From contig JAKAYK010000002.1 of NCBI GenBank assembly GCA_021826765.1, positions 1 to 40,710 on the forward strand: 40,710 nucleotides of DNA. Reading direction: 5' to 3'. The position numbers and the translations under genes were made by a program. The notes below the pieces were generated by a model. The model had not been told where the DNA came from and searched no databases. It saw only the letters and a list, made by a program, of their open reading frames with translations. Of the stretch, positions 7,894 to 13,803 are shown piece after piece; positions within the stretch are counted from its first letter, which is position 1, and the number at the start of each line of letters is the position of its first letter. Source of the DNA: Thermoplasmata archaeon. Its GTDB lineage: Archaea > Thermoplasmatota > Thermoplasmata > Thermoplasmatales > Thermoplasmataceae.

Positions 7894-7937
7894 TAGCACA
7901 CAAGAGAAACATTTTTTATTCCTTATCTTACAGTCTG

Positions 7938-8222
7938 ATGATGCTAAAAGAATCAATCTTTAACACTGTATCAGAATTTACGCAATTCACACAGACAAAC
8001 AGTATTCTTGACAGAGGATTATACATTGTAGTCTCTGCCTCAAGCGTTTTGATCGCACTTCTATGGATTCCCATAGCAATGGGGTTTTTCAGCACTGATG
8101 AAAACAAAAAATATGCATCTTACCACCGGGCGAAATCCGCTGCAATAGGGACAGCGATCTATATATTTGCAGTAACCGGCGTAATATATGGGGTATTCAA
8201 TTTCATAATAACAGGAAACTGA
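7938..8222 (+). CDS. Small two-TM protein, CedA1/VirB2-like pilin candidate
   Basis: 94 aa. Two hydrophobic helices (LYIVVSASSVLIALLWIPIAMGFF and AAIGTAIYIFAVTGVIYGVFNFII) are joined by a charged loop (STDENKKYASYHRAKS). First gene of a coupled cassette with a VirB6-like and a VirB4-like gene. Confidence 0.55.
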   Translation: MMLKESIFNTVSEFTQFTQTNSILDRGLYIVVSASSVLIALLWIPIAMGFFSTDENKKYASYHRAKSAAIGTAIYIFAVTGVIYGVFNFIITGN

Positions 8223-9175
8223 TGCTATCCTCAGATATTATTTCAGCTCTTGGAAAGGCAATACTTTCCATGGAACTCTTTCTCTCGCAATTTCTATGGA
8301 GAATGGCTATAGATCAGGGATTAAAAAACCCACAGTCTTACCTGATCTGGCATCTATTCAATGGCAATCTAAGGAAGCTTGAAAATGATCTGTTTGATCT
8401 TGTGCCAGTATTGATATCAATTTCACTTGCATATTCTGGCATTGCCATTCTTATGGGATTGGAAAAGGAAAATAAGCACATTCTTGAAAATGCATCAGTT
8501 GGGTTATTTCTACTTGCATTTTCCGTTTATGTGATGAAGTTTACATTAATAGTTTCTCTGGATGCATCAGATGGAATTCTATCCATGTCTTCAGGCTGGA
8601 GTTATTATTTCTCTGATGTTTATGTGCTTTCAAGTATGGGGTTTTCAGGAAATCAGGCATACTCCGAAATATTTTTTTCAGGCATCTACACTATTGGAGG
8701 CATAGGAATAACTCTGTCTCTGATGCTCAGGGAGGGGATTCTTATAATGTTGTTTCTTCTCCTTCCCCTTTTATCGGTATTATCATTCAACGTGAAGGGA
8801 AGGGGTATTCTTATCAAATTGTGGATAGTGTTCCTTGAGGCAGCTTTTCTGCCGGTACCAATCCTTTTGATGATATATGTTTATATCAACCTGAGTGGAG
8901 ATTTCTTTCAACAGCTGGGCATCATAATACTTATTTCATCTTTTCCTGCTTTTCTCTCATATGGATCTTATAGAATTGCAGGCGCAAGGTTCTCCTCACT
9001 GCCATTTTTAATTGAATTTGAAAGGAAGAACATGTCCAGTATGGTATCACCTACCAAGGGGCCCCTGTCCGTTCCATTCCAGAACACCATAAAACAGTTA
9101 AAGAATACTTTCCCGGAGGGGGAGATGGGGAGACTGGTAACAGAGATGAACGGAGGATCCAGTTTTGAGCACTGA
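8222..9175 (+). CDS. Polytopic membrane protein, CedA/VirB6/TrbL-like
   Basis: 317 aa with multiple TM segments; LREGILIMLFLLLPLLSVLSFNVKGRGILIKLWIVFLEAAFLPVPILLMIYVYI resembles the VirB6/TrbL core. One-nt overlap with the preceding stop (TGATG). Confidence 0.55.
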   Translation: MLSSDIISALGKAILSMELFLSQFLWRMAIDQGLKNPQSYLIWHLFNGNLRKLENDLFDLVPVLISISLAYSGIAILMGLEKENKHILENASVGLFLLAFSVYVMKFTLIVSLDASDGILSMSSGWSYYFSDVYVLSSMGFSGNQAYSEIFFSGIYTIGGIGITLSLMLREGILIMLFLLLPLLSVLSFNVKGRGILIKLWIVFLEAAFLPVPILLMIYVYINLSGDFFQQLGIIILISSFPAFLSYGSYRIAGARFSSLPFLIEFERKNMSSMVSPTKGPLSVPFQNTIKQLKNTFPEGEMGRLVTEMNGGSSFEH

Positions 9176-10988
9176 ATTGCTGAAACCGTTGGAAAATATT
9201 TTTCCATCATCAAGATCCAACGACAGAAGAAAAGCAGTCATTGTGTTCACATTATCTGCCATATTCATTATTTTCTATCTGGGGCTAGAACTTGAGGCCT
9301 TAATTCTTGCTATATTAACAGTACTGGCCATAATTTATTTTCGTTCAAGATCCAGCGCGCTGAATATAGAAAAGGAAGAAAATAATTCAACACATTTCTA
9401 TAAGATCAGCTCTGATTTCTCATGGGAAGACAGCAAAGAGCAGGCTTGGAGAAATCTTACAAATTTAACATCTTTATGCAGTTATATTGGCGTAAACTTT
9501 ACAGTCGTATCATATCCGGATAACAGCAATTCATCCATGAGGCCAATTTCTGTTGCACATGCAGATTATCTGAATTTCATAGATTCAACCTTTCCGGAAC
9601 GGCACAGTTTCTCAAGTGTTATTAAATTGGAGAATGTAGACGAACTATCAATTGGCAGGATAAAGGAATCTGTTTCAAGAATTGGAATCAGTATGGAAGA
9701 AAGTAGCAAATTTATACTGACTTCTGCGGAATTTTTTTTCGGGGAAAAGGATCTGAAACTGGATGGAAAATATATCTCCGGAAAATTTCATTATTGTGTG
9801 CTTGCATTAAAAAACATTAAGGGTGGTAAATATTTCCAGTTATCAGACATTGTAAGAAGAATTAGGGGTGATGTCCTCTTTGTAAACGACTTCAGGATGA
9901 TGGACTCACAAAATAGCCTTGTAATAAGGAGGCAGATTTCTACCATATTGGCATCTTCAAAGATTAAAACTGAAAAAAAAATTGCATTAAAAAATTCATT
10001 CAAAGACAGGGAGGAATCTGCTATCATCCTTAAAAAAACAGATGAAAACGAAATAATTGACACATCTATGTTCCTCATCATAAAGGCAGATGCGCCTTAC
10101 GAACTAACAGATAAACTAATCCATGCAAAATCATTGACTGAACATTTCTCCCTTGAGACTCAGGTCGTAAATGATCGGAAAACTATAGAGAAATTGATTT
10201 CCATGAATTTTTCATCATTCCATTACCCAATGCTGTCAGGAAATATTGCTTCACTTATCTCCTTTCTTGGAACAAAAGTGAAGACTAATGGGATAATAAT
10301 TGGAAAAAATTCAATGACAGGAATGCCTGTTCATTTGGATATATTTTCAGGTGATTCATATAATTTGATCATTCTTGGAGAAACAGGTTCCGGGAAGACA
10401 TTCTTCTCAAGGCTTGTGCTCTGGCGCCTCCTCATTTCGGGAATGGTTGAAAAGATCATGATAATTGATCCTCAGGATGAGTTCTCATCCATTTCATTTG
10501 CAGACAGGATGGGGGCTGGAACGGAGTATTTTCCTGAGATAAAAATTTTGACAGGTTATGGAGACAATTATCTCAGACAAATGGAGGAATATATTACAGG
10601 AGACAGTTCAAAGAGGAAAATGATTCTGGTGGATGAAGCACATTTATTCATAAGAGACCAGGAGAGCAAAAATAAAATGTCTTATCTTTACAGGGTATCA
10701 AGGCATTATAACGCTTCAATAATGATCATAACACAGGACGTGGAGGATTTCAAACAGCCCCCTTTAAACAGCATCATCAACAATTCAGCATATGTTGGAA
10801 TTTTCAGGAATAAGATGTGGGATTCTCTTAAGGAATTTGGGATCTCACCTCAAAAACATGGTTACAGCAACTTTGAATCTCTTGGTGGTGGAAAAAGTTC
10901 AACAGAATCTGAAATGTTTCTTTACACAAATGGGAGAATGAAAAAAGTAAGCGTCCTTGCATCAGGGTGGGAATTATCGAATCTTTAG
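9165..10988 (+). CDS. VirB4/HerA-superfamily ATPase with N-terminal TM segments, CedB-like
   Basis: Walker A ILGETGSGKTFFSRL; Walker B RKMILVDEAHLF; VirB4-like VSRHYNASIMIITQDVEDF; hydrophobic N-terminal hairpin. TTG start overlapping the upstream gene by 11 nt. Confidence 0.7.
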   Translation: MSTELLKPLENIFPSSRSNDRRKAVIVFTLSAIFIIFYLGLELEALILAILTVLAIIYFRSRSSALNIEKEENNSTHFYKISSDFSWEDSKEQAWRNLTNLTSLCSYIGVNFTVVSYPDNSNSSMRPISVAHADYLNFIDSTFPERHSFSSVIKLENVDELSIGRIKESVSRIGISMEESSKFILTSAEFFFGEKDLKLDGKYISGKFHYCVLALKNIKGGKYFQLSDIVRRIRGDVLFVNDFRMMDSQNSLVIRRQISTILASSKIKTEKKIALKNSFKDREESAIILKKTDENEIIDTSMFLIIKADAPYELTDKLIHAKSLTEHFSLETQVVNDRKTIEKLISMNFSSFHYPMLSGNIASLISFLGTKVKTNGIIIGKNSMTGMPVHLDIFSGDSYNLIILGETGSGKTFFSRLVLWRLLISGMVEKIMIIDPQDEFSSISFADRMGAGTEYFPEIKILTGYGDNYLRQMEEYITGDSSKRKMILVDEAHLFIRDQESKNKMSYLYRVSRHYNASIMIITQDVEDFKQPPLNSIINNSAYVGIFRNKMWDSLKEFGISPQKHGYSNFESLGGGKSSTESEMFLYTNGRMKKVSVLASGWELSNL

Positions 10989-11036
10989 GGCAGCAACGTG
11001 TGATGAAAATTTACACTCTTTATTTTTGGTAAGATA

Positions 11037-11279
11037 TTATGGATTCTCCCACACATAAACATAAAAAATGCCGATGATTCCAAGCACAATCATGGGGACT
11101 ACAAACGAATATAGGCCTGGGTCCAACCATGTTCCATAAAGGATTGACCATGATACATAAAATAGAATCCCTATGAGAAGAAAAATGAAACTTACTGCAA
11201 GCAATGCATTGAGATACATTGATCTTCCCTTGAATGATCCTAGTTTTCTTTGTGAACTTTTATTTTCAAGTTGAGTCAT
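11037..11279 (-). CDS. Small two-TM membrane protein, unknown function
   Basis: 80 aa with two hydrophobic helices. Convergent with the ATPase gene. Confidence 0.55.
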   Translation of the reverse strand: MTQLENKSSQRKLGSFKGRSMYLNALLAVSFIFLLIGILFYVSWSILYGTWLDPGLYSFVVPMIVLGIIGIFYVYVWENP

Positions 11280-11586
11280 TACGGAAATGCATACAATTAA
11301 CTGATATAATTTTTTTTATATTGTTCAGAACATCTTCACTACATATTTTATCTATCAAGGACTTCTGGAAAATCACACACATCATGGGCCCACGTTATCA
11401 ATTCAACACAAATTACGCTCTAAGTCAAATCATACGGTTTCAATTTTCTTCCTTCCGAAATTCTATGGTGTTCCAAATTTGTCAGATCAGTGGTTAAGAG
11501 AAAATATCCTGCATACAGGCAATTTATCTAAAAAGTCAGAGTAACGTGCCCATAAGACTTATCAGGTTCAAGCACATAGGTTTTAC

Positions 11587-11949
11587 ATGGTGAGGATACA
11601 GTTTCTGGAGGATGAATTTGAGATTGATCTGGAAGGAATAGAGAAATTCGAGGCGGTGAAAAGGGAACTCCGGATACCATACTCATGCATAAGCAGGGTT
11701 GACGACACAGCGGGAGATGTTTATGGGGGATTAAGGCTCATGGGAACAAGACTCACACAAAACATGTACGATTTTGGAAGATTCACCACAAAGGAAGGGG
11801 AAGGATTCTTTGCTTTCAGGAAGAGGGAGAATGCATTTGCAATTCATCTCATCAACAATAAATACGGGATAATCATTATCGAAACTGAAAACAGGGAACA
11901 GGCAATAGAAGAATTGAGAGCAAAAATGGTGAAAGGATCAGGGGCCTGA
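11587..11949 (+). CDS. Conserved hypothetical protein, possibly PH-like
   Basis: 120 aa; beta-rich; FGRFTTKEGEGFFAFRKRENAFAIHLINNKYGIIIIETENREQAIEEL resembles bacterial PH-like proteins. Confidence 0.6.
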   Translation: MVRIQFLEDEFEIDLEGIEKFEAVKRELRIPYSCISRVDDTAGDVYGGLRLMGTRLTQNMYDFGRFTTKEGEGFFAFRKRENAFAIHLINNKYGIIIIETENREQAIEELRAKMVKGSGA

Positions 11950-12151
11950 AATCTCTTTTTTCTCAATATACAATCATCATGTTATTTTATAAGTCTAATA
12001 TATGAATAATGCGTTAAACTTATCCTCATTCTTAATTTATTAAATCATTTAAAGTTCTATTTTTAGAATATTTCCGCACAATGGTGAGCAAATTTTAGGG
12101 CATGTAATATATCATAATATTAATATCTAAAAAGATAATCACAAAGAAGAA

Positions 12152-13663
12152 ATGAGCATTATCCGGTTCAGTTTGATTTCTTTAAGAAGCTTTAAACAAA
12201 AAAACATTATCGCATTTATAATCGCATCATCAATTGTCCTTATGCTCAGCGGATTAGCTATTAATGCTTCTCAACCGGTTGTCTATGATCATTATGTTTA
12301 TATGAATTTAACCGCTTCACAGATAGGAAACACAAATAATTTCCTGGTAAAAGGGTTTATTCTTGATAAAAACCTTTTGCCAGAATCAAATTCATCATTT
12401 AATTTCGAAAAATCCCCTTCCCACATGTTTTTTGGCGGGAACAATTTCAGTGCTTGTCAGCAGTTTATACTTAATGATATTCAATCCCAGAATAGATTGA
12501 CAAATTCTGAAGGGCTTTTTTCATTGGAAATCAATGGCTCTGGAAACTATTCCAAATATTCGTGTTTTCAGCAAATAATGTCCTTTTTTCAGTACAATTT
12601 TGTCTTCAGCATAAGCAATCTATCCGGGTCGCAGCAAGACTCTATGATAGAATACCCGCCCGGTCAGCAATTGATACTTTTACCTTATTATAATTTGGGA
12701 AATTATGGAACTGCAGCTGTAGTCTTCATTCCCGGAAATAGCAGCAATACTTTCAACCTTAGCTATAAAACTTACTCTAATTTAACCACAAATACATCAG
12801 CAATTTTGAATCTTGGAAAATTTCATTACGGAATTCCACAAAGGGTAGGCGACTATAACCAGATTTTATCAATGAATGAAGCTTATTCAGTATCATTTTA
12901 TTTCAACAACAATCTTTATAATAGCCTTAATTTTGCTCCACCCACTTCCAGCTTCAGTTTTTCTTCACAATTAGGATTTACTGTTTATTTTTTTAGTGCA
13001 GTAAGTATTATCTTTATCACAACCACGATCGCAACAAACATATTTGACAGGCCAATGAATGAATTTTATCTTTCAATTCCTGAAAAAAGAAGAAATGTAA
13101 TCATAGGATCCGTTATTCTGGGCACCATCGCAACAATCATTTCAACAACAATCGCATTTTTACTTGGAGATATAATTAGTATTATCCTTTTTTCAGCACC
13201 ATTAAACTCATCATCTATCTTAAATTTGATGATATTTAACCTGTTCCTTTTTGCAATTATCTCTCCTATTTATTTCTTCTTCGGCACACACACCCGTTAT
13301 GGTTCAGGAATTAAGATTGGAATTTCATTGATGCTTGTCATTGGAGTCCCATTAATTTCCAATATAATCGAATCAGTATTTTCTATAAGCATTTTTGTAT
13401 CCGGTTTTGGAGGAAATCAAATTTCAATGTTATATCTTCCATACCTTCAAGAAATAAGGATATTCAATCTGTTGACCGGACTTATCCCATTCACAGCTCC
13501 AATGGATTTGTTCAACTACATGGTAAGGTCACCATTTTTAGGAATAGTAATGCTGAATCATCTGTCAATATTTTATCTGAGTCCATTGATCTTTTTCTCA
13601 CCATTGATCACATGGTTTGTCCCCCTTATCTATCTCAGTATAAGAAAATATGAGAGAGTTTAG
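12152..13663 (+). CDS. Polytopic membrane protein, ABC-2 permease-like
   Basis: N-terminal TM, large extracytoplasmic region, then about six C-terminal TM helices. No adjacent ATPase. Confidence 0.55.
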   Translation: MSIIRFSLISLRSFKQKNIIAFIIASSIVLMLSGLAINASQPVVYDHYVYMNLTASQIGNTNNFLVKGFILDKNLLPESNSSFNFEKSPSHMFFGGNNFSACQQFILNDIQSQNRLTNSEGLFSLEINGSGNYSKYSCFQQIMSFFQYNFVFSISNLSGSQQDSMIEYPPGQQLILLPYYNLGNYGTAAVVFIPGNSSNTFNLSYKTYSNLTTNTSAILNLGKFHYGIPQRVGDYNQILSMNEAYSVSFYFNNNLYNSLNFAPPTSSFSFSSQLGFTVYFFSAVSIIFITTTIATNIFDRPMNEFYLSIPEKRRNVIIGSVILGTIATIISTTIAFLLGDIISIILFSAPLNSSSILNLMIFNLFLFAIISPIYFFFGTHTRYGSGIKIGISLMLVIGVPLISNIIESVFSISIFVSGFGGNQISMLYLPYLQEIRIFNLLTGLIPFTAPMDLFNYMVRSPFLGIVMLNHLSIFYLSPLIFFSPLITWFVPLIYLSIRKYERV

Positions 13664-13803
13664 AAGTTTCTGTTCGTTATTATAAATGTGAAATAACACT
13701 AAAAATATTTTTCCGGCCTTTTTTAAAAAATTCTGCGATTTAGCATGTGGAATTTAAAAAACATTGATAAAATTTATTTTAAACGGTTTAATACCTCTTC
13801 ATT

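Follow-up and report, generated by a model that had tools for sequence, protein, structure and literature searches.

Three tightly coupled genes on the chromosome of a Thermoplasmata archaeon raise the question of what machine they encode, what it might carry and where it belongs among the type IV secretion systems (T4SSs). They lie in the window, by which we mean the whole 40,710-nucleotide stretch of DNA analysed here, from a 1.03-Mb draft genome that is 73% complete. The original prediction read them as a Ced-like DNA-import cassette encoding proteins of 94, 317 and 607 amino acids, and the open reading frames are found exactly where it had placed them: 7938–8222 for the small two-helix protein, 8222–9175 for the polytopic protein and 9165–10988 for the ATPase, which starts at TTG. 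All three are on the forward strand and overlap by 1 nt and 11 nt.

The locus and its conservation

The upstream flank consists of housekeeping genes (3-hydroxyacyl-CoA dehydrogenase, enoyl-CoA hydratase, ribose-5-phosphate isomerase and a hot-dog thioesterase). A TATA-box-like element, ATTTTTTATT, is visible by eye at 7911–7920 (+), some 25 nt ahead of the first start codon. Relatives (L032, L036, L040 and L041) have T-rich or TATA-like stretches, again by eye, at a matching distance, and a leaderless promoter of the cassette's own is therefore probable. On the other side, convergent with the ATPase gene, a gene at 11037–11279 (−) encodes an 80-amino-acid protein with two transmembrane segments and the conserved motif WSILYxTWxDxGLYSF. 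This protein has no informative Pfam match, and searches gave no support for it as CedA2 or as a pilin; it is possibly an accessory gene, and we did not count it as a core part. Further downstream, at 11587–11949 (+), a 120-amino-acid protein weakly matches a bacterial PH domain (bPH_5).

We sought the ATPase in 101 genomes close to the source and found it in almost all members of the source's family, across 19 genera, with the cassette single-copy in essentially all of them. In the resulting set of 41 same-family loci, window included, the small gene is present in 37 (38 with L033, in which an N gap masks it), and 38 loci have the polytopic gene; in the other three, a contig end truncates the locus. 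Gene order is constant, and the genes mostly lie within a few nucleotides of one another. A thioesterase gene is directly upstream of the cassette in about 26 of the 41 loci and a homologue of the 80-amino-acid gene sits beside the ATPase gene in 37, and the locus is therefore fixed rather than mobile, which bears out the view of the cassette as a chromosomal resident among housekeeping genes. When compared with the two nearest relatives, all three genes have dN/dS values of about 0.07–0.2 and are under purifying selection.

The cassette also extends beyond the family. When 392 genomes of the phylum were searched with a profile of the small protein, it was found in 33 genomes of its own family, 5 of family f3, 3 of f5 and 19 of f7, which belongs to another order, with two weak matches in f36. 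Cassette-bearing genomes include G048 and G034, which we take to be Thermoplasma acidophilum and T. volcanium, and G064, presumably Aciduliprofundum boonei. Among 20 distant loci, which come from other families and another order, 18 keep the collinear set pilin, polytopic protein, (VirB3-like protein), VirB4. The ATPase thus keeps its partners near and far, as opposed to being a stand-alone enzyme without a conserved neighbourhood.

Assignment of the three proteins

The ATPase has one hydrophobic segment, at around residue 39, followed by a Walker A motif (GETGSGKT, residues 405–412, 10377–10400 (+)) and a Walker B motif (KMILVDEAH, residues 485–493, 10617–10643 (+)); G405, G408–K411 and E491 are invariant in the alignment of 39 orthologues. 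Its best NCBIfam match is the VirB4 of mycoplasma integrative and conjugative elements (ICEs) (NF045975, 2.6e-22, compared with 1.4e-6 for the CedB model), and Pfam likewise points to VirB4. The family profile matched a VirB4 of known structure (PDB 4ag5) at 1.3e-16 and aligned with Firmicutes VirB4 at 2.9e-31 over 495 columns in hhalign; matches to VirB4 in the plasmid collection were weak at most. On these profiles, the protein is assigned to VirB4. Its membrane-anchored N-terminal part (9165–9404 (+)) corresponds in relatives (L042–L047, L057–L061 and families f3 and f5) to a separate open reading frame of 190–250 amino acids with N-terminal transmembrane segments. One such frame only, from an f5 relative (L239), matched PrgI (E = 0.0026), and the N-terminus of the ATPase family (A3) aligned with plasmid VirB3 at P = 0.004, giving moderate support to a VirB3-like N-terminus.

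In the 94-amino-acid protein, two hydrophobic helices, at around residues 30 and 73, are joined by a positively charged loop. The Pfam family T4SS_pilin (PF18895) was matched by 34 of 37 orthologues (best 9.9e-8) and NF045849, the pilin-like conjugal transfer protein Mbov_0395 of a mycoplasma ICE, by 31 of 37 (best 9e-8); single sequences, including the one in the window, are sub-threshold, and the assignment is that of the family. Consistent with this, a control family of two-helix proteins from the same loci (A4) gave scattered, unrelated matches and no consensus T4SS_pilin match, and the widened pilin family aligned with Firmicutes plasmid pilins at P = 2.1e-4, with controls at 0.05 or worse. 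A search of PDB sequences with the pilin profile yielded chance matches only, the plasmid collection held no match, and the AlphaFold2 model, one long helix, had no significant Foldseek match in the PDB. By family membership, the protein is placed among the VirB2-like pilins.

The 317-amino-acid protein has at least five hydrophobic segments, and its gene always stands between those of the pilin and VirB4. Single sequences matched no family. In hhalign, a profile of 38 sequences could be aligned end to end, if weakly, with the TrbL proteins from eight Firmicutes plasmids: about 225 columns were collinear (P = 3e-4; 1.4e-3 for the widened family), whereas none of the eight control membrane families did better than 0.097. 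PDB sequence searches with the profile gave chance matches only, and in a Foldseek search of the PDB with the AlphaFold2 model (pLDDT 74) the VirB6 of R388 (7o3v) ranked 11 of 463, which is not significant (E = 0.44). A VirB6/TrbL identity is moderately supported by these alignments. Of the structural and profile resemblances originally expected, those of the pilin to VirB2 and of the ATPase to VirB4 were recovered by profile and that to VirB6 weakly so, whereas Foldseek gave nothing significant and the expected similarity to CedA1 and CedA did not appear.

Some distant relatives carry more elaborate versions of the pilin region. In L237, from G064, five tandem pilin-domain proteins (8826–13685 (−)) precede the VirB6-like and VirB4 genes, and four of the five have N-terminal ectodomains of about 250–340 amino acids, several of them Gly/Trp-rich, fused to the pilin hairpin; these are possibly modular or tip pilins. 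In families f5 and f7, the gene right before the pilin encodes a large surface protein (L237:13693–15927 (−), L246:1501–3684 (+), L255:9979–12270 (−) and L252:9607–11325 (−)) with a signal peptide, Ig-like repeats (in L237), a C-terminal transmembrane segment and a cytoplasmic tail resembling a winged helix, a candidate adhesin or contact sensor.

Cargo, mechanism and alternatives

We consider it probable that the cassette is a minimal, chromosomally resident T4SS of the monoderm conjugation type, inherited vertically in Thermoplasmata. By analogy with known systems, the pilin would sit in the membrane as a hairpin whose positively charged loop points inwards, and the VirB4 motor would pull it out into a thin mating pilus on a VirB6/VirB3 platform. 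The 317-amino-acid protein would form this membrane platform and the channel, and the VirB3–VirB4-like ATPase would power both pilus assembly and the passage of the substrate.

As had been foreseen, there is no relaxase beside the cassette, and no integrase either; PF03432, the one relaxase family covered, is absent from 11 genomes of the order (the source draft and ten single-contig relatives). The further claim that a coupling protein is missing is correct only of the neighbourhood: the genome does encode, unlinked to the cassette, a soluble VirD4/TraG-type ATPase without transmembrane segments (G000:C46, L261:4907–6781; TrwB_AAD_bind at 2.5e-9 and TraG-D_C at 22.2 bits, above the cut-off). 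This gene is single-copy here and in nearly all family genomes searched. In G009, a single contig of 1,938,699 bp that we take to be Cuniculiplasma divulgatum S5, in agreement with the gene positions in Golyshina et al. 2016, the cassette is found near 1.16 Mb and the VirD4-like gene near 0.76 Mb. A conserved gene for a protein of about 290 amino acids precedes the VirD4-like gene in closer relatives. Family f3 has a HerA/VirD4-like ATPase gene and a gene for about 215 amino acids directly after VirB4 (L241:12332–15009 (+), and also L240, L242, L243 and L256); the former possibly encodes a built-in coupling protein.

Contact-dependent exchange of chromosomal DNA between cells is the leading functional reading, and we infer that the unlinked VirD4/TraG-like ATPase would probably feed the DNA to the channel, as in Ced. 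Genetic exchange is said to occur in Thermoplasmatales populations (Ferroplasma), as Eppley et al. reportedly described in 2007. We found no paper that names the machine for it, and the conserved three-gene locus is a concrete candidate for gene swapping in acidophilic Thermoplasmata. In its fullest form, the proposal is of a class-wide, vertically inherited machine for cell-to-cell DNA exchange: an archaeal domestication of monoderm conjugation separate from Ced and Ted. The machine would serve wall-less acidophiles and, in Aciduliprofundum-type relatives, would be elaborated with pilin arrays and Ig-repeat surface proteins. This wider proposal we advance tentatively, as a serious possibility short of a probable one; if true, conjugation was domesticated at least twice in archaea, and from different sources.

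The same T4SS could instead serve protein or effector delivery, adhesion or cell–cell contact, for example with DPANN epibionts. The missing relaxase (PF03432) and the lack of an adjacent coupling protein in the window are consistent with such a role, as are the large surface proteins beside the pilin and the ectodomain-bearing pilins of the f5 and f7 relatives. It also has a parallel in Patescibacteria, whose T4SSs are thought to have been co-opted for other functions (PMC12102498) and whose homologues may function in protein delivery or in contact with a host. However, the genome has a VirD4/TraG-like ATPase with both TrwB_AAD_bind and TraG-D_C domains, and Ced and Ted move DNA without relaxases (PMC9905601, PMC11868833), which leaves a role other than DNA exchange rather unlikely, although it is the most credible of the alternatives.

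The original prediction came closest to a true Ced orthologue, that is, a CedA1–CedA–CedB cassette inherited or transferred from Thermoproteota and importing DNA. For this comparison we used Thermoproteota genomes, of which 22 of 25 yielded CedB and one (0.8 Mb read) had CedA1 and CedA adjacent. The retrieved proteins were confirmed by NCBIfam (CedA1 7.5e-37, CedA 1.2e-74) and by the solved pilin 8dfu (3e-24), and the comparison set comprised 20 CedA1 and 13 CedA homologues from 20 genomes. The NCBIfam models of CedA1 (NF041797), CedA (NF041796) and CedE had no match among the 37 pilins and the 38 channel proteins, even at E = 10. In hhalign, the pilin family aligned with CedA1 at P = 0.013–0.038, while control membrane families reached 0.004, and the channel family aligned with CedA at P = 0.06–0.3, no better than controls. 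The known relationship between CedA1 and CedA was recovered at 1.2e-7, and the profile–profile method therefore works. A whole-genome profile search of Ced-bearing genomes with the channel family found nothing, and we rejected Ced membership for both the pilin and the channel.

The ATPase is the component with some affinity to Ced. The CedB model (NF041017) does match it, but with 27 bits against a cut-off of 700, and bacterial VirB4 gives the ATPase a better score than CedB does. In a VirB4 tree, all Thermoplasmata sequences grouped with VirB4 from Firmicutes and from Sulfolobus conjugative plasmids, and CedB fell across a branch with 97/97 support. Forcing Thermoplasmata and CedB into one clade cost 7.9 log units (AU P = 0.086), so that such a clade is disfavoured but not formally rejected. 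A shared set of three component classes, the CedB match and this P value are what speak for Ced orthology, which the pilin, the channel and the tree together make very improbable. What stands of the original prediction includes the VirB2–VirB6–VirB4 composition; on the sequence evidence, the cassette resembles Ced in its composition and perhaps its use, but is placed outside the Ced family.

In the course of this comparison, we observed that in Desulfurococcales-type loci (L174–L183) CedB-like ATPases lie in a conserved operon with a membrane protein of about 150 amino acids, proteins of 440–890 and 690–800 amino acids and a polytopic protein of about 480 amino acids, and that CedA1 and CedA are located elsewhere in these genomes. 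The polytopic proteins of about 480 amino acids are related neither to the 317-amino-acid channel family nor to TrbL.

Uptake of free environmental DNA through a ComB-like T4SS core would fit the absence of a donor-side gene (relaxase) and has a known counterpart in the T4SS-based uptake of Helicobacter (cited in PMC11868833). Against this, the cassette includes no dedicated uptake nuclease or DNA-binding protein. Free DNA is also unstable at the pH in which the cassette hosts live, and we regard competence as very unlikely. That the three genes are the decaying remnant of an integrated conjugative element, whose genes and those of plasmids they do resemble, is scarcely credible and was rejected on selection and synteny, given the low dN/dS, the family-wide conservation and the fixed locus with neither integrase nor relaxase nearby.

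Comparison with known systems

The closest architectural match to this probable monoderm-type T4SS is found in Firmicutes plasmids such as S. pseudintermedius pKM01 and B. brevis pBbsI, whose MPF_FATA-type systems share the order small two-helix pilin, TrbL/VirB6, VirB3/PrgI, VirB4, and whose VirB4 is the closest by profile to the cassette ATPase. In contrast to these, the cassette is chromosomal and vertically inherited, its VirB3-like part is joined to VirB4 in the window, and it lacks a relaxase, an adjacent VirD4 and the cell-wall hydrolase that is encoded downstream in the plasmid versions. The cassette hosts are wall-less cells and would therefore need no VirB1-type hydrolase. The mycoplasma ICE module, too, operates in wall-less cells, and its pilin (Mbov_0395) and VirB4 (Mbov_0397) are the best NCBIfam matches of the pilin family and the ATPase; the ICE, however, is mobile and the Thermoplasmata cassette is not.

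Parts of the machine have been listed before. Golyshina et al. (2016) named a VirD4-family ATPase, VirB4, and multipass and small membrane proteins of Cuniculiplasma as T4SS components (PMC5155288), and their C. divulgatum genes CSP5_1185–1189 are almost certainly the orthologous cassette. That list was made by arCOG, without a pilin or VirB6 assignment, a phylum-wide survey or a comparison with Ced, and the pili seen by electron microscopy in Cuniculiplasma PM4 were attributed to type IV pili genes (PMC5155288). A 2023 paper mentions VirB4 in 'E-plasma' (PMC10354927). Our literature search turned up no work in which the pilin or channel is identified, the class-wide presence of the cassette is shown or a comparison with Ced is made.

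In concept, the nearest precedent is the T4SS of Patescibacteria (CPR), which is also domesticated, usually lacks a relaxase, and has PF18895 pilins and tandem pilin arrays like that of L237, but belongs to a different domain of life and has yielded no VirB3–VirB4 fusions (PMC12102498). Ced (CedA1, CedA, CedA2 and CedB, in Sulfolobales and relatives) and Ted (in Thermoproteales) are likewise domesticated VirB2, VirB6 and VirB4 sets without a relaxase. Unlike Ced, the cassette has neither CedA2 nor adjacent Ups pili genes, its pilin and channel have no detectable homology to CedA1 and CedA, and its VirB4 lies on the other side of the tree. The cassette is best filed as a variant that stands alongside Ced, Ted and the Patescibacteria T4SS, set apart from Ced by the sequence comparison with the Ced proteins.
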